In this document: piece by piece, positions 35,486-42,071 of the stretch
Layout of the letters: each line of letters begins with the position of its first letter
Position numbering within the stretch: position 1 is the stretch's first letter
Source of the DNA: Cytophagales bacterium CG12_big_fil_rev_8_21_14_0_65_40_12
GTDB taxonomy: Bacteria > Bacteroidota > Bacteroidia > Cytophagales > Cyclobacteriaceae
Direction of reading: 5' to 3'
Assembly (NCBI GenBank): GCA_002786855.1
Contig: PCUU01000008.1
Coordinates: 32,660 to 96,659, forward strand
Length of the DNA stretch: 64,000 nucleotides
The notes under the pieces: model-generated
The model's input: the letters and a program-made list of their open reading frames with translations, nothing else
Told to the model about the DNA's origin: nothing
Databases searched by the model: none
Position numbers and translations under genes: made by a program

Positions 35486-36178
35486 ATGATTTTTGAATTA
35501 GATCAAATTATAGATGGAGGTCCTTGGTATGCCGAAACGCATATCACAGATCAAATTATAGTAGAGCCTTGGAATGCTTTCTCCTCATTGGCCATAGCTG
35601 CTCCTGCCATTTATTTTCTTTGGAGGATCCGGAAAAACCCGATGCAATTCAAGTTTCTGCTCTTTTGTATTCCGATTCTATTTCTCAACGGAATTGGAAG
35701 CACGCTATTCCATGGACTGAGGTCTTCTCAATACTTGCTATTGATGGATTATTTACCCGCCTTGGCGCTTACCTTATCCATTACTGTCTATTTATGGTAT
35801 AAAGTGCTCCCCACGTGGTGGATGGTGATCTTCACCGTAGGCCCACTTTTTGGCCTGCGCTTTCTGGTGATGAATTATTTTTCTGGCGCTTTTGGAATGA
35901 ACCTCTCTTACATCATTGGTGGCATCGCTTTTCTTTTGCCTTTTTTATTAATTCTCAGAAAGTATCAATATCAAAAAAGCCTGAATATCATAACAGCTGT
36001 TCTGTGCTTTATACTGGCCATATATTTCCGCGGTGCGGATAAAGAATTCACACATATTGTCTCCTTCGGGACGCATTTTCTTTGGCATATATTCACTGGA
36101 ATAGGTGCTTACTACTTGGCCGATTACCTCTATTTTTTGCGTAAGAAGGAATTGGGTCAGCAAATCAACCCCGTCTAG
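35486..36178 (+). CDS. CREST-superfamily membrane hydrolase (ceramidase-like)
   Basis: This 230-residue protein has about seven membrane spans and the full CREST hydrolase signature: Glu27 in IVEPWNAFSS, the Ser72-x3-His76 pair in GSTLFH, Asp88 in LLMDYLP and the His197-x3-His201 pair in GTHFLWHIF. These residues bind zinc in alkaline ceramidases and related enzymes. Bacteroidota make sphingolipids, so an amide-lipid substrate is plausible but unproven. Confidence 0.82.
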   Translation: MIFELDQIIDGGPWYAETHITDQIIVEPWNAFSSLAIAAPAIYFLWRIRKNPMQFKFLLFCIPILFLNGIGSTLFHGLRSSQYLLLMDYLPALALTLSITVYLWYKVLPTWWMVIFTVGPLFGLRFLVMNYFSGAFGMNLSYIIGGIAFLLPFLLILRKYQYQKSLNIITAVLCFILAIYFRGADKEFTHIVSFGTHFLWHIFTGIGAYYLADYLYFLRKKELGQQINPV

Positions 36179-36257: not shown

Positions 36258-37871
36258 ATGAGAATACCCACCGTTGTAGCCAAGTTTTCAGATTTAAAAG
36301 AAAAAGTACCCACCGCAGCACTCGTCTCACAAACCGATCTGGTTGTGATCAGGTATGGCGATGAAGTATCTGTGCTTTATGGAAGGTGCCTTCACCGTGG
36401 GGCGCTTTTGGCCGATGGTAGAGTTGAAGGCCACAACCTTATTTGTGGTTTGCACAATTGGGACTATAGAATTGATACGGGCGTAAGTGAGTACAACAAT
36501 AATGAAGTGCTCGAAAAGTTCGAGGTAGAGATCAATGGCGATGAAGTTTTGATCGACAAACAGGATATTCTCGACTTTGAAAAAATTCACCCCGCCCCAT
36601 TTAGCAGAGAGGAATACTTGGGCATTTATGCGGATACTCATCCAGAATCGACAGAACCTTATACCCGATATATTAAAGAATTAGCACAAAATGGACTGAA
36701 AAATTGGGGGCATCATGGGCCATCTGAGGCGATGGGGGTTGATAGAAATACCCTGCCAAAATGGGAAGACATTCAATTTCTTCCTGCCCAATTATCGAGA
36801 AGACCACTTTTTGACCATGAAAGCGTGAACGCAAAAACCGTAATCGGTCCAAAAGCAAAAAAACCGCTCATTTTGGACATACCGCTGTTCGTGTCGGATA
36901 TGTCTTTTGGTGCACTATCTAAAGAGGCGAAAATCGCCTTGTCCAAAGGGGCAGAAATGGCCGGCACGGGAATTTGCTCAGGCGAAGGGGGGATGTTACC
37001 AGATGAACAACAAAATAACCAACGCTATTTCTATGAATTGGCATCTGCTCAATTTGGCTTTAGTTGGGATAAACTAGAAAAAGTACAAGCCTTTCATTTC
37101 AAAGGCGGCCAAGGCGCAAAGACAGGTACGGGTGGACATTTGCCTGGCAATAAGGTGACAAAAGAGATTGCCCAAGTCAGGGGCTTAAAGGAAGGTGAGG
37201 ATGCCATTTCTCCTGCTACCTTCACTAATTTTCATGGGGTTGATGACTTCAAAAATTTCGCCAGCAAGGTGCGAAATGTTACTGGAGGCATTCCGATTGG
37301 GTTTAAAATAGCCGCAAGCCGCATTGAAGATGACATTGATTTCGCGCTAGCGGTAGGCGTTGATTATATCATTCTTGATGGCCGAGGTGGCGGAACAGGT
37401 GCCGCTCCGAGCATTTTGCGCAACAATATCAATGTGCCAACTATTCCTGCATTGGCCAGGGCAAGAAAGCATTTGGACAAAAGAGAGGCTACCGATGTAA
37501 CGCTCATCATCACAGGAGGGCTACGAGTGGCCGAAGACTTCGCCAAAGCTTTAATGCTGGGAGCAGATGCCGTTGCGGTGTCAAACTCGGCATTGCAAGC
37601 CATTGGTTGTTTGGGTATGCGCGCCTGCAACACCAACAACTGCCCTGTAGGCATTGCCACACAAAAAGAAGACCTGAGGGCCAGATTACAAATTCAGGCC
37701 TCGGCCAAACAACTGGCCAATTTCTTCAACGCCTCCACCGACTTAATGAAAGTGATAGCCAGGGCATGTGGACATAGCGATTTTGCCAAATTCAATGCAA
37801 GTGACTTGAGTACTTACAACTGGGATATGCATAAACTGGCAGGAATTTCATATGCAGGTGTAAATCCATAA
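36258..37871 (+). CDS. Rieske-FMN glutamate synthase-like enzyme
   Basis: This 537-residue protein joins an N-terminal Rieske [2Fe-2S] domain (Cys44/His46 in RCLHRG and Cys63/His66 in CGLHNWDY) to a glutamate-synthase-type FMN barrel (about 150-530). The barrel keeps SDMSFGALSKEAK, GEGGMLPDEQ, FKGGQGAKTGTGGHLPG and DGRGGGTGAAP, and the cysteine set of CLGMRACNTNNC that holds a 3Fe-4S cluster in GltB. The glutaminase domain is absent, so it is not a complete glutamate synthase. It leads a five-gene redox cassette; substrate and electron acceptor are unknown. Confidence 0.9.
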   Translation: MRIPTVVAKFSDLKEKVPTAALVSQTDLVVIRYGDEVSVLYGRCLHRGALLADGRVEGHNLICGLHNWDYRIDTGVSEYNNNEVLEKFEVEINGDEVLIDKQDILDFEKIHPAPFSREEYLGIYADTHPESTEPYTRYIKELAQNGLKNWGHHGPSEAMGVDRNTLPKWEDIQFLPAQLSRRPLFDHESVNAKTVIGPKAKKPLILDIPLFVSDMSFGALSKEAKIALSKGAEMAGTGICSGEGGMLPDEQQNNQRYFYELASAQFGFSWDKLEKVQAFHFKGGQGAKTGTGGHLPGNKVTKEIAQVRGLKEGEDAISPATFTNFHGVDDFKNFASKVRNVTGGIPIGFKIAASRIEDDIDFALAVGVDYIILDGRGGGTGAAPSILRNNINVPTIPALARARKHLDKREATDVTLIITGGLRVAEDFAKALMLGADAVAVSNSALQAIGCLGMRACNTNNCPVGIATQKEDLRARLQIQASAKQLANFFNASTDLMKVIARACGHSDFAKFNASDLSTYNWDMHKLAGISYAGVNP

Positions 37872-37895
37872 TATTATCAAAGAGAGCTGAATTAT

Positions 37896-38108
37896 ATGGT
37901 AGAATTGATAATTTCAATGGTGCTTATTTTGATGGGAATCTACTTGCTGATTGGGCTATTTTTCTGTTTTGTGTTTTTCAGAAAAGGAGTTCAATCGATT
38001 GATGAGGGAGTAAAGGGAGCCCCCATTTTTATGAAAATCTTGATTTTCCCTGGAACTGTGGCTTTATGGCCAGTATTATTAGCTAAATGGAGAAAAACTA
38101 AAAAATGA
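37896..38108 (+). CDS. Small two-span membrane protein of the redox cassette
   Basis: This 70-residue protein has a hydrophobic N-terminal segment (about 2-28), a short charged loop and a second hydrophobic segment (about 46-62) ending in a basic tail. I do not recognise a family. It lies 24 bases after the Rieske-FMN gene and overlaps the next by four bases (ATGA), so it is part of the same transcript. Confidence 0.7.
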   Translation: MVELIISMVLILMGIYLLIGLFFCFVFFRKGVQSIDEGVKGAPIFMKILIFPGTVALWPVLLAKWRKTKK

Positions 38109-38563
38109 ATGTAAAACTCCGCCAAAGACATCGATATATCTGGATGGTGATGGGAATCGCCTTGCCTTTATTGTGCTTAGAAGCCATTGAGCACATTCCA
38201 GCCAATCCCTTAGCAAGGATCCCAATCAATATTTGTCCTGTTGGAATCGCCAATTGCGAGGTTGTTTCATCTCATGACATAGATTATCATGCTTTTGAGT
38301 GGAGCTATGATATCATCGATGAAACCACAACTTTAAAATTAGACTTGGTAAGACCTTTAAAATCTGCTTTTTCACTGGTTTATCTCTCTAAAGGTGAAAG
38401 TCCAGATAAGAACTCTATTTTATTGGGCGGCTTGAATGAAATGAAACATTATGAATTCTCCTTTCCATGGGGAACGGCAAGTAAAATGGATCATATTTTA
38501 GTTTGGGACAAGCTCAACAATAAGCAACTCTTTTTTAATTCCATTAATGACCTGAAGCCATGA
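38105..38563 (+). CDS. Membrane-anchored exported protein of the redox cassette
   Basis: This 152-residue protein has one N-terminal hydrophobic segment (about 12-27) after a basic start, so most of it should sit outside the cytoplasm. The outer part includes two cysteines in INICPVGIANCEVV near residues 42-50, then beta-rich sequence. No family was recognised. It overlaps both neighbours by four bases. Confidence 0.7.
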   Translation: MNVKLRQRHRYIWMVMGIALPLLCLEAIEHIPANPLARIPINICPVGIANCEVVSSHDIDYHAFEWSYDIIDETTTLKLDLVRPLKSAFSLVYLSKGESPDKNSILLGGLNEMKHYEFSFPWGTASKMDHILVWDKLNNKQLFFNSINDLKP

Positions 38564-39591
38564 GCGTAAGCTACAAAGGCATATTATGGAATAGACAAAA
38601 GTGGATTTACGATGCCATCTTGTTTGCATTCATACTGATTTACCTCGCAGTTTTTATTGGTTTATCTTCCGTTTTTTTAGTTGAGATCACTTTTGAAACA
38701 CTAATCATTCGGGCAACAGCTACGCTTGCCATTTTGCTTTTGCACATTATCCTAATGATTGGCCCTTTGGCGAGACTCAATGGTAAATTCCTTCCGCTGC
38801 TCTATAATCGAAGGCACTTAGGGGTGACCATGTTTTTTATTGCGTTGATCCATGGTGTCTTTAGTCTTTTACAATTCCATTCCCTTGGTTCGAAAAACGT
38901 ATTCATATCACTCTTTACTTCAAATGAGGCTTACAATTCCCTAGGCGGCTTTCCATTTCAGGTTTTGGGCTTCTTCGCACTTATCATCCTCTTTCTAATG
39001 GCCGCGACAAGCCATGATTTTTGGTTGAAAAACCTGAGTCCAAAAGTTTGGAAAAGCTTGCACATGACTGTGTATTTGGCTTATGCATTAATTGTAATGC
39101 ACGTGATGCTCGGAATCATTCAGCTTGAGTCTTCACCATTTGGCTATGGCTTTTTAATGATGGGAATGATTGTGCTGATCGGTTTGCATTTCGCTTCAAG
39201 CATTAAATCAGGTCGAGGCCTTGACCTAAAATCTAAGCCAGGCTTTTATCATGCCTGTGATCTAAATCAGATTGAAGAAAACCGCGCTAAGATTATCACA
39301 TTGAACGGAGAGGGCATTGCCATCTTTAAATATGATGGTAAACTTTCGGCCATTAGTAATATCTGCAAGCATCAGAATGGCCCCTTGGGCGAAGGCAAAA
39401 TAATTGACGGCTGCGTTACTTGTCCGTGGCACGGCTACCAATATGAGCCACATAACGGGAGTTCACCTCCACCCTTTACTGAAAAAGTTGCCACCTATTT
39501 ATTAAAACTAGAGGGCAATAAAGTATTTGTAAACCCAGACCCTTTGCCTGAAGGAACTACAGTTGAACCAATAACTTATAAGGAATCATGA
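38560..39591 (+). CDS. Haem-type membrane protein fused to a Rieske domain
   Basis: This 343-residue protein has about six membrane spans of the ferric-reductase/MsrQ type. Candidate haem-ligand histidines are in LLLHIILM, NRRHLGVTMFFIALIHG and KSLHMTVYLAYALIVMH. A C-terminal Rieske [2Fe-2S] domain follows, with Cys269/His271 in CKHQNGPLG and Cys288/His291 in CPWHGYQY. It could carry electrons across the membrane. The four-base overlaps on both sides tie it to its neighbours. Confidence 0.85.
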   Translation: MSVSYKGILWNRQKWIYDAILFAFILIYLAVFIGLSSVFLVEITFETLIIRATATLAILLLHIILMIGPLARLNGKFLPLLYNRRHLGVTMFFIALIHGVFSLLQFHSLGSKNVFISLFTSNEAYNSLGGFPFQVLGFFALIILFLMAATSHDFWLKNLSPKVWKSLHMTVYLAYALIVMHVMLGIIQLESSPFGYGFLMMGMIVLIGLHFASSIKSGRGLDLKSKPGFYHACDLNQIEENRAKIITLNGEGIAIFKYDGKLSAISNICKHQNGPLGEGKIIDGCVTCPWHGYQYEPHNGSSPPPFTEKVATYLLKLEGNKVFVNPDPLPEGTTVEPITYKES

Positions 39592-40367
39592 GCCAAGATG
39601 AATTCTATATTGGCTATCTGCCAAAGGTACCTAAGAAAATTGCTCGCTTCGTAAAAGTGGCGAGCTTCCTAATGCTCTCAATACTGATTTTTGGAGCCTA
39701 CATCATGGTTGCCAATCAAGAGGTAATCTCAAACGGCATCTATGAATATGGTGAACTTACGGAAATTGAAGGCCTGCTTTACACTGAACCTGCCCCTTTT
39801 CTGAAAGTGATTGAGGGGAAAGACATTGATGGAAACATCATCCATAAAAACATTCTACTGATCAATTTTGGGAAGTTTGGCGCTGATGAAAGCCTTCAAA
39901 AAATCAAAGCAAAATCAGGTGGTGACTTGAGCAAAGTATGGGTGAAATTAAGAGGAACGCTTATTTTTCATAATGGCGTCACTTTATTAGAGCTGACTGA
40001 AAATGAAAACGCCTATCAAAGTCATCGACCTTTGGAAGAAGCTCAACTTTATCAGCGCTCCTTCATCCAAATGGCTACTGAAACACTTTATGGCGAAATC
40101 ATAGATCCCAAATGTTATTTCGGTTCTATGAAGCCAGGCCAAGGCAAGCCACATCAATCTTGCGCAGCTTTATGTATTGCTGGAGGAATCCCGCCTATGT
40201 TTGCGGTTGAGAATACAAATGGTATTGCAAAATATTACCTCATTAAAACCAAGGGTGAATATGCCATCCAATCAGATATACTACCTTATATAGGCCAACC
40301 AATGGCCATTTCAGGCAAAATAGAGCAGCTGGACGAATGGAATATCATTTATCTCGATTCAAAATAA
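39588..40367 (+). CDS. Membrane protein with conserved cysteine motif, last of the redox cassette
   Basis: This 259-residue protein has one membrane span (about 24-43) and a long hydrophilic part. Near residues 172-205 it carries a striking motif: Cys176 in DPKCYFGSMKPG and Cys192/Cys196 in HQSCAALCIAGGIPPMF. The cysteines could bind a metal or a cluster or undergo thiol chemistry. I recall similar proteins next to Rieske/ferric reductase genes in other bacteria, but no function. It starts inside the stop of the Rieske-membrane gene. Confidence 0.75.
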   Translation: MSQDEFYIGYLPKVPKKIARFVKVASFLMLSILIFGAYIMVANQEVISNGIYEYGELTEIEGLLYTEPAPFLKVIEGKDIDGNIIHKNILLINFGKFGADESLQKIKAKSGGDLSKVWVKLRGTLIFHNGVTLLELTENENAYQSHRPLEEAQLYQRSFIQMATETLYGEIIDPKCYFGSMKPGQGKPHQSCAALCIAGGIPPMFAVENTNGIAKYYLIKTKGEYAIQSDILPYIGQPMAISGKIEQLDEWNIIYLDSK

Positions 40368-40457: not shown

Positions 40458-42071
40458 ATGAAAACCGATAAACGAAATTTTGCTGTCTTGCATGACGACC
40501 AACTCAATAAGTCAGTCGCTTTTTCCAGAGAAGAACGTGAGGAACTCGGCCTGCGAGGACTTTTACCTTACACAGTTAGCTCGCAAGCTTTACAAATGAA
40601 GCGTCTGATGGAAAACCTACGCAGAAAAGAATCGGACATTGAACGCTACATACAACTTTCCTCTTTGCAAAACCGAAATGAACGCTTGTTCTATAGAGCA
40701 GTAATTGACAATATTGAGGAAATCATGCCTCTAATTTATACGCCTACGGTTGGGCAGGCTTGCCGAGAATTTTCTCAAATTTTCAGAAAGGCCAATGGCT
40801 TTTTTATCTCTCCAGAAGACAAGGGCGAAATCAGAAAAATATTGGATAATTGGCCTCACGAGGATGTCAGAGTGATTGTGGTGACAGATGGTGAGCGGAT
40901 TCTAGGCCTTGGTGATTTGGGGGCAAATGGGATGGGAATTCCTATTGGAAAACTTGCGCTATACTCGGCTTGCGCGGGTATTCATCCAAGGCAATGCATG
41001 CCAGTAATGTTGGATGTTGGCACCAATAACGAGGAGATTTTAAATGATATCCTCTATTTGGGTTATCCCCACAAGCGAATTAAAGGACAGGCCTATCTGG
41101 AATTGGTAGATGAATTTATCATGGCCATTCAAGATAAATACCCCAAGGCACTGATTCAATTCGAAGATTTTCTAACGCCCAATGCCTACGCGCTTTTGCG
41201 CAAGTACAAACACAGAGCGCTTTGCTTCAATGACGATATTCAGGGAACTGCAGCGGTAACCTTGGCCGGAGTTTATGCCTCTTCGCGCATCACCAAAAAG
41301 GCATTCTCCAAACTTAAAATTATGTTCTTAGGGGCAGGCTCAGCGGCAACTGGTATTGCCGATTTAATGGTAAGGGCATTTGAAGCTGAAGGACTTAGCA
41401 ATCAAGAAGCCAAGGAAAGACTTTGGTTTGTCGATATCAATGGGTTGGTTGTAGCTGAAAGAACAGATTTAATGGAGCACAATCTTCCATATGCACACCA
41501 TCATGAGGCAGCTAATTTCCTAGAAGCCATCGACAAAATCAAACCTGATATCTTGATTGGCGCAACAGGTTCTCCGGGCACATTCACCAAAGATGTAATC
41601 GAGAGAATGAGTTCCCATAATCAAAGGCCCGTGATATTCGCCCTTTCTAACCCAACTTCCCGAGCGGAATGTACCGCAGAAGAAGCCTATAAATGGAGTA
41701 GAGGAAGGGCGGTTTTTGCAAGTGGAAGCCCTTTTGAAAAAGTGACTTATGGCAATTTTCATTTCAAACCTGGCCAAGGCAATAATGCTTATATCTTCCC
41801 TGGCATAGGGCTTGGAGCCATCCATACCGAAGCCAGTATGATCAATGAAGAGACTTTTTTGATTGCTGCCCGAACTTTAGCTGATCAGGTTTCTGATGAT
41901 GATATTGCCAATGGAGCAGTTTACCCACCATTAACCAAGATCAGAAACATCTCTCTTGAAATTGCGGTGAATGTAGCCCAAGCGAATTATGACAACGGCT
42001 TGGCTAGAAATGAAAAACCAGAAGATTTAAGGCAAAGTATAATCGACTACATGTTCGATCCAACTTATTAA
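40458..42071 (+). CDS. maeA: NAD-dependent malic enzyme
   Basis: This 537-residue enzyme oxidatively decarboxylates malate to pyruvate. The N-terminal domain has the substrate site YTPTVGQACREFS and the EDFLTPNAYALL/FNDDIQGTAAVTLAG metal and catalytic region; the NAD-binding loop FLGAGSAATGIADLM lies near residue 295. The length and arrangement match the long ScfA/MaeA-type NAD enzymes rather than the NADP-dependent MaeB-phosphotransacetylase fusion. Confidence 0.95.
   Translation: MKTDKRNFAVLHDDQLNKSVAFSREEREELGLRGLLPYTVSSQALQMKRLMENLRRKESDIERYIQLSSLQNRNERLFYRAVIDNIEEIMPLIYTPTVGQACREFSQIFRKANGFFISPEDKGEIRKILDNWPHEDVRVIVVTDGERILGLGDLGANGMGIPIGKLALYSACAGIHPRQCMPVMLDVGTNNEEILNDILYLGYPHKRIKGQAYLELVDEFIMAIQDKYPKALIQFEDFLTPNAYALLRKYKHRALCFNDDIQGTAAVTLAGVYASSRITKKAFSKLKIMFLGAGSAATGIADLMVRAFEAEGLSNQEAKERLWFVDINGLVVAERTDLMEHNLPYAHHHEAANFLEAIDKIKPDILIGATGSPGTFTKDVIERMSSHNQRPVIFALSNPTSRAECTAEEAYKWSRGRAVFASGSPFEKVTYGNFHFKPGQGNNAYIFPGIGLGAIHTEASMINEETFLIAARTLADQVSDDDIANGAVYPPLTKIRNISLEIAVNVAQANYDNGLARNEKPEDLRQSIIDYMFDPTY

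Follow-up and report, generated by a model that had tools for sequence, protein, structure and literature searches.

What kind of electron pathway is encoded where two Rieske proteins lie in one gene run with a heme-type membrane protein and three proteins that belong to no named family? This question is raised by five adjacent genes, referred to here as G1 to G5, in a 64,000-nucleotide stretch of DNA (the window; contig PCUU01000008.1, positions 32,660 to 96,659) from Cytophagales bacterium CG12_big_fil_rev_8_21_14_0_65_40_12. The genome (4.06 Mb; G000, contig C90 in our numbering) has Roseivirga as its closest named relatives. A sequence-only reading of the window had described the five genes as one redox cassette, joined by three overlaps of four bases and one 24-base gap, and the coordinates agree with this, as the overlaps are all ATGA and the gap lies between G1 and G2. 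The family assignments of that reading were also confirmed by Pfam, which gave Rieske and Glu_synthase domains for G1, described as a soluble Rieske protein with a glutamate-synthase-like enzyme, and Ferric_reduct and Rieske domains for G4, described as a ferric-reductase-like protein fused to a second Rieske domain. The small proteins G2 and G3, taken to be without a family, had no match above cut-off in Pfam or NCBIfam, and neither had G5, in which the C-x15-C-x3-C motif noticed earlier corresponds to C176-x15-C192-x3-C196. The data presented below show that the evolutionarily kept unit is formed by the four genes G2-G5 (37896-40367), and not by all five.

The gene neighbourhood was compared in 80 loci, which were the best 80 of 251 by likeness to G5, and G5 alone was used to pick them. 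The gene counts in these loci rest on a custom open reading frame caller followed by clustering, and the families of neighbouring genes were assigned from a single representative per cluster. G4 was found in 77 of the 80 loci, and G3 and G2 in 71 each, with the order G2-G3-G4-G5 in 69. Because the loci were drawn by G5 alone, and yet mostly carry G2 to G4, this neighbourhood is far from chance. The spacing was mostly an overlap or a few tens of bases, with the largest gaps of 475, 969, and 1181 bases, and four of the 11 incomplete loci (L021, L039, L052, and L060) are cut by a contig end. When the comparison starts from the cysteine-motif protein, the genes are thus common neighbours; the sequence-only reading had named the opposite, rare neighbourhood, as a result that would speak against it. 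The proposed dedicated redox set, with two Rieske proteins, a heme-type membrane protein, and a cysteine-motif protein, is indeed made of conserved neighbours. Two of its details have to be modified, however: the conserved unit leaves out G1, which is a frequent partner also found alone, and the number of two Rieske proteins holds for this locus, but sets in Bacteroidota often add a third (35 of 80 loci). A characterised homologous complex explaining all five genes was found neither in the open literature searched nor by a solved-structure search with the G5 alignment.

The same association was observed in a phyletic survey, for which 395 Bacteroidota genomes were drawn evenly and G4 was called at E <= 1e-60. 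G4 and full-length G5 were present in the identical 13 genomes. Twelve of these have sequence upstream of G4, where G2 was found in all 12 and a G3 in 11, while in the thirteenth (G290) the contig begins inside G4. G4 and G5 are also adjacent on five Rhizobium plasmids, and no other plasmid had a match covering more than 80% of G4 (plasmids were searched, archaeal chromosomes were not). On the three of them that are annotated, a 71-amino-acid relative of G2 and a short relative of G3 precede G4, so that all four genes are there. The gene set is real and widespread, and no description of it was found in the open literature searched.

G4 is the sole match to the ferric-reductase family in the window genome. 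Its residues R84, H86, H98, H152, H168, H181, and H210 are kept in 78 of 78 sequences, and H62 in 77. The pairs R84-x13-H98 and H168-x12-H181 agree with the heme signature in its YedZ form, in which, according to portions of PMC3591440, arginine stands for the first canonical histidine and the other three histidines are kept. Judged by hydropathy and by the charges of the loops, with the helix ends placed by eye, G4 would have six helices, with both termini and the Rieske domain on the cytosolic side. The Rieske ligands C269/H271/C288/H291 are invariant (78/78), their boxes CKHQNG and CPWHG do not have the second cysteines of the bc type, and an extra invariant cysteine, C285, is located three residues before C288. 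Pfam detected no cytochrome b family in G4, and no flavin adenine dinucleotide (FAD) or reduced nicotinamide adenine dinucleotide phosphate (NADPH) domain of the type present in NADPH oxidases (NOX), giving only Ferric_reduct and Rieske. Both of these domains are present in all 120 G4 relatives among the matches listed (at least 8000 candidates were scored), and some named relatives are labelled YedZ or MsrQ-type heme-binding subunit by the source databases. The pairing of a ferric reductase domain with Rieske appears as model M4 in the parts of Zhang 2013 (PMC3591440) that bear on it, where the legend of M4 carries a flavin mononucleotide (FMN) mark besides Rieske, so M4 may be another architecture; these parts give neither a function nor partner genes for it.

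The AlphaFold2 model of G5 (predicted local distance difference test score, pLDDT, 86.8) contains one helix, which would be the membrane anchor, and two beta barrels comparing with oligonucleotide/oligosaccharide-binding (OB) folds. Residues C176, M181, H189, C192, and C196 are invariant in 81 of 81 sequences. The solved-structure search with the G5 alignment returned no solved relative, and neither the G5 model nor that of G3 pointed to a specific structural relative. A protein search with G5 gave 337 relatives, and one with Rhizobium G5 as the query gave 1309, and of the 120 listed, those with names belong mostly to Rhizobiales and Rhodobacterales. The G5 profile matched 20 of the 395 genomes, which are the 13 with G4 and seven that match in the second predicted OB fold only; the H-x2-C-x3-C spacing is kept in the five single-OB relatives (L097-L101) that were read among these seven. 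The proteins from L097-L101 are small, with signal-peptide-like starts, and two of them match DUF5818 weakly.

G2 is by hydropathy a membrane protein of 70 amino acids, with G20, D36, P52, and W58 invariant in 72 of 72 sequences. G3 begins with one membrane helix, in which R6, H9, and W13 are equally invariant (72/72), and in its AlphaFold2 model (pLDDT 86.6) the helix is followed by a seven-strand beta-sandwich, which is probably periplasmic. In seven genomes (G084, G114, G164, G176, G227, G360, and G391) G3 has only 31-61 amino acids, corresponding to the helix without the sandwich, and the loci with such a cut G3 (L119, L120, L121, L122, L124, L126, and L102) retain G2, G4, and G5. The short forms were detected with weak E-values (2e-7 to 2e-4), and their assignment is partly by position. 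As G3 is cut to its helix while the other three genes stay, its constant part is the helix bearing R-x2-H-x3-W. In G220 a separate G3 was not found, and a longer G2 there ends in a second hydrophobic stretch, which could be a fused G3 helix. Locus L103 (7976-8338) encodes a G2 of 120 amino acids that closes with another hydrophobic stretch and may be a fusion of G2 and G3.

In G1, alignment to solved glutamate synthases located the [3Fe-4S]-type cysteines C451, C457, and C462, spaced as Cys-x5-Cys-x4-Cys. These three cysteines and the four Rieske ligands are kept in all 40 aligned sequences, and so are E243, K282, Q285, K288, and R308, for which we assume the roles of the corresponding glutamate-synthase residues, including those for 2-oxoglutarate. 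No glutaminase family was found in G1 by Pfam, and the protein stays under the NCBIfam cut-off for full-length GltB (130.8 vs 1047 bits). A gene on a Vibrio fortis plasmid (L114 4680-6230) encodes the G1 core (65% identity) together with two CDGSH stretches, which stand where G1 has its Rieske domain; this suggests that the G1-type core has an exchangeable electron port. On a Halorussus plasmid (L110 5007-6779) a 590-amino-acid protein has a Rieske-like N-terminal stretch, with no family identified for the remainder.

The third Rieske protein seen near these sets is a thiamine-dependent enzyme. Among solved structures, E. coli PoxB is the nearest to it (249.5 bits), followed by acetolactate synthase (206.6 bits); the match stops at PoxB residue 526 of 572, and the top NCBIfam match, pyruvate oxidase, is under the cut-off (401.1 vs 742). 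In the survey, G1 was present in 48 genomes, G4 in 13, and the Rieske-thiamine gene in 10, of which nine have G1 and five have G4. G1 occurred in 12 of the 13 module genomes versus 36 of the 382 others, lying no more than about 3 kb from G4 in seven of the 13, elsewhere in five, and absent in one. One-sided Fisher tests, in which the genomes are treated as unrelated and kinship is ignored, gave 3e-11 for the pair of G4 and G1; for the thiamine gene, the values were 4e-6 with G4 and 3e-8 with G1. A similar pattern was observed within the genus, represented by the window genome and 18 further members, where all 11 G5-positive members have G1 versus one of eight G5-negative, and the thiamine gene is present in nine of the former and none of the latter. 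The window genome itself does not have the Rieske-thiamine enzyme, its best match being at 31% with the Rieske part missing; the other thiamine-negative, G5-positive member is an 80% complete genome. Within the flank examined in the 80 loci, G1 was found in 33, the thiamine gene in 35, and both in 30, and the G1 and thiamine genes near the module are on its strand in 68 of 68 cases.

The two enzymes also occur together in haloarchaea. On plasmids of Salinirubellus, Halorarius, and Halorubrum, G1 (58-59% identity, nearly full length) and the thiamine enzyme (58-59%) lie about 1.4, 4, and 17 kb apart, respectively, and in Haloferax larsenii the thiamine enzyme (58%) was found with no G1 among the matches listed. 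From these sequences, the haloarchaeal pair is likely the result of a cross-domain transfer. A Na+/H+ antiporter family is represented near the module in 22 of the 80 Bacteroidota loci, and an antiporter gene follows the thiamine gene on the Halorarius plasmid; it is of the same Pfam family as the Bacteroidota one, with only 28% identity.

Our explanation, which we put forward tentatively and at slightly less than an even chance, is that G2-G5 build a membrane complex, in which the predicted heme-b protein G4 takes electrons from cytosolic Rieske enzymes and passes them to the periplasmic side. From the observed gene order, co-occurrence, domain content, and invariant residues we infer its steps, including the direction, the acceptor, and the metal in G5. 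Cytosolic Rieske enzymes, for example the adjacent G1, would hand electrons to the Rieske domain of G4, with G1 as the most constant donor seen and the thiamine enzyme as a second one. G1 itself would exchange electrons among FMN, the [3Fe-4S] cluster, and its Rieske domain while interconverting glutamate and 2-oxoglutarate. Since the Rieske domain of G4 would sit where NADPH oxidases hold their flavin/NADPH domain, it may replace flavin as the electron entry. Direct Rieske-to-Rieske transfer is plausible, because G1, G4, and the thiamine enzyme all have Rieske domains of the soluble ferredoxin type, which lack the additional cysteines seen in the bc type. The heme b of G4 would carry the electrons outward across the membrane, and the outer heme would pass them to G5, where the invariant Cys3/His/Met set of the second predicted OB fold would provide a metal site or a redox cysteine centre. 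G2 and the G3 helix could serve as structural or docking subunits, for which the G3 sandwich would be dispensable. A wider circuit may also exist, although we consider it rather doubtful: G1-type flavoenzymes and the PoxB-like enzyme would swap electrons mutually through their Rieske domains, and in Bacteroidota also with a Rieske-heme b exporter that has G5, as a new Cys/His/Met redox protein of OB-fold type, at its periplasmic end. The pair would then have been transferred between Bacteria and Archaea, and the membrane module between Bacteroidota and Alphaproteobacteria.

Several observations weigh against this explanation. Heme and cluster binding by all members is predicted from residues, metal binding by G5 is likewise conjectural, and model confidence is low in the loop between the G5 cysteines. 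The YedZ signature is linked, according to the relevant parts of PMC3591440, probably to a single, surface-proximal heme, and the outward direction of flow is presumed. Two of the 80 loci (L026 and L033) lack G4 although the sequence continues upstream of G5, and the Fisher tests disregard relatedness. Within the flank, 42 of 80 loci contain neither G1 nor the thiamine enzyme (27 of the 59 loci with full flanks on both sides), and on the Rhizobium plasmids no match covers more than 80% of G1. As these loci and plasmids are without a nearby Rieske donor, the module must have other donors. The missing nearby donors and the single heme of the YedZ signature are the weightiest of these objections.

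The acceptor could instead be quinone, with G4 acting as a Rieske:quinone reductase that feeds the pool from pyruvate and glutamate oxidation as a respiratory entry, and G5 being a structural or maturation factor. We regard this as unlikely. It would agree with the Rieske domains being of the low-potential type, as we assume they are, and with the similarity of the thiamine enzyme to PoxB, which feeds quinone and binds the membrane by its C-terminal tail, the part before which the match ends. The single heme that YedZ-type proteins probably hold, in the sections of PMC3591440 cited above, would also suit a short path. However, a reduction of quinone by G4 leaves the invariant Cys/His/Met set of G5 without a role, and G5 accompanies G4 in exactly the same 13 survey genomes, even though two of the 80 loci have it without a nearby G4.

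A distinctly unlikely alternative is that the electrons flow inward, from a quinol or periplasmic donor through heme b and the G4 Rieske domain to G1, which would make glutamate reductively. The transfer from quinol to a low-potential Rieske would be uphill, and 36 of the 48 genomes with G1 do not have the module. In addition, NADPH oxidases and MsrQ run outward, as stated in the portions of PMC5676040 on this point. These arguments stand against the fact that G1 keeps the glutamate-synthase substrate residues that were checked and the [3Fe-4S] motif, while the antiporter family near 22 of the loci and near one haloarchaeal thiamine gene would suit glutamate as a salt-stress solute.

It is similarly improbable that G2-G5 is only a co-regulated neighbour of a soluble pair, in which pyruvate oxidation by the thiamine enzyme drives glutamate synthesis by G1, Rieske to Rieske. 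Nine of the ten genomes with the thiamine enzyme have G1, and locus L106 groups G1 and the thiamine enzyme with a DUF2721 gene as one set; the 16 kb read there contain no gene of the module. On the three haloarchaeal plasmids with the pair, no match covers more than 80% of G4 (chromosomes were not searched). Yet the module and G1 covary in the genus (11/11 vs 1/8), and the window genome has both without the thiamine enzyme. Finally, a methionine-sulfoxide-reductase system of the MsrPQ kind, suggested by the names that source databases give to some G4 relatives, is hardly credible for G4-G5, as G4 reaches 39.5 bits in NCBIfam, where the cut-off for MsrQ is 130, and the window genome has no match to PF00174, the family of the molybdopterin partner, in a search positive in 9 of 14 control genomes, which contradicts the MsrP-dependent form in this genome.

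If the proposed export of electrons through G4 and the wider circuit are true, Rieske domains would be a shared plug in central metabolism, replacing ferredoxin, NADPH, or quinone, and the presence of Rieske domains on relatives of glutamate synthase and pyruvate oxidase in these bacteria and haloarchaea would be explained. Many proteins named after YedZ or MsrQ would be something else, and the three nameless families G2, G3, and G5 would gain a function.

The genes that flank the set (Table 1) vary among the loci. A ceramidase-like gene is located 79 bases upstream of G1, and six relatives (L013, L014, L015, L016, L018, and L019) also have such a gene directly upstream of G1; it is a possible first gene of the transcript in the genus. 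The malic enzyme gene lies 90 bases downstream of G5. Malic enzymes are near the set in 8 of 80 loci, and in the relatives L012, L013, L014, and L019 a malic enzyme stands behind the Rieske-thiamine gene, which the window locus lacks. L019, among the fullest Roseivirga loci, contains in order the ceramidase-like gene, G1, a 408-amino-acid malic enzyme, G2, G3, G4, G5, a DUF2721-type gene, the Rieske-thiamine enzyme, and a second malic enzyme, and other loci are without single genes of this series. Proteins of about 250 amino acids from one cluster without a Pfam match (c7) are encoded near G1 or the module in 30 of 80 loci (e.g., L108 8531-9265). Downstream of G5, several Flavobacteriaceae (L056, L068, L071, L073-L075, and L088) have one fixed gene string, which from the sequence starts we take to encode LysE-like, DinB-like, NRDE-like, ATP-grasp-like, and outer membrane-like (about 190 amino acids) proteins.

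Table 1. Features of the window and of three haloarchaeal plasmid stretches (aa, amino acids)
Feature	Sequence	Position	Strand	Length or match
Ceramidase-like membrane protein	window	35486-36178	+	PF05875 45.2 bits, cut-off 32.5
G1	window	36258-37871	+	537 aa
G1 Rieske domain, N-terminal	window	36273-36488	+	Pfam
G1 glutamate-synthase FMN core	window	36810-37772	+	Pfam PF01645 302.3 bits
G2	window	37896-38108	+	70 aa
G3	window	38105-38563	+	152 aa
G4	window	38560-39591	+	343 aa
G4 ferric-reductase-type membrane domain (Pfam match)	window	38719-39096	+	PF01794 50.8 bits, cut-off 28
G4 ferredoxin-type Rieske domain, C-terminal	window	39247-39462	+	Pfam
G5	window	39588-40367	+	259 aa
G5 C-x15-C-x3-C motif including M181 and H189, in second predicted OB fold	window	40113-40175	+	
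Malic enzyme	window	40458-42071	+	PF00390, PF03949
Enzyme pair near merA, haloarchaeal plasmid	L111	5615-10674		
Enzyme pair near merA, haloarchaeal plasmid	L112	3972-11689		
Enzyme pair near merA, haloarchaeal plasmid	L113	7192-27545		

The proteins of the set can be compared with several known systems. G1 shares with GltB, the large subunit of glutamate synthase, the FMN core, the [3Fe-4S] motif, and the 2-oxoglutarate residues, while it has an added Rieske domain and no glutaminase domain was found in it by Pfam. Similarly, the thiamine enzyme differs from E. coli PoxB by an added N-terminal Rieske domain and a shorter C-terminal end. Rieske proteins of the bc type carry extra disulfide cysteines, and, in contrast to the Rieske/cytochrome b complexes to which they belong, G4 has neither these cysteines nor a cytochrome b family. 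Fusions of CDGSH domains to a glutamate-synthase core are known as type 5 CDGSH proteins, as described in parts of PMC3174974 and also PMC5859297; these proteins and G1 both join a [2Fe-2S] domain to the FMN domain, which is CDGSH in theirs and Rieske in G1. With MsrQ/YedZ, G4 shares the ferric-reductase-type membrane domain, the arginine at the first heme position, and the three histidines, but it adds a C-terminal Rieske domain and travels with G2, G3, and G5 in a genome without an MsrP-type family. The NADPH oxidases and ferric reductases (NOX/FRE) likewise combine a heme-type membrane core with a C-terminal electron-entry domain, which in G4 would also be cytosolic, whereas G4 has Rieske in place of the FAD/NADPH domain and arginine in place of the first heme histidine (78/78).

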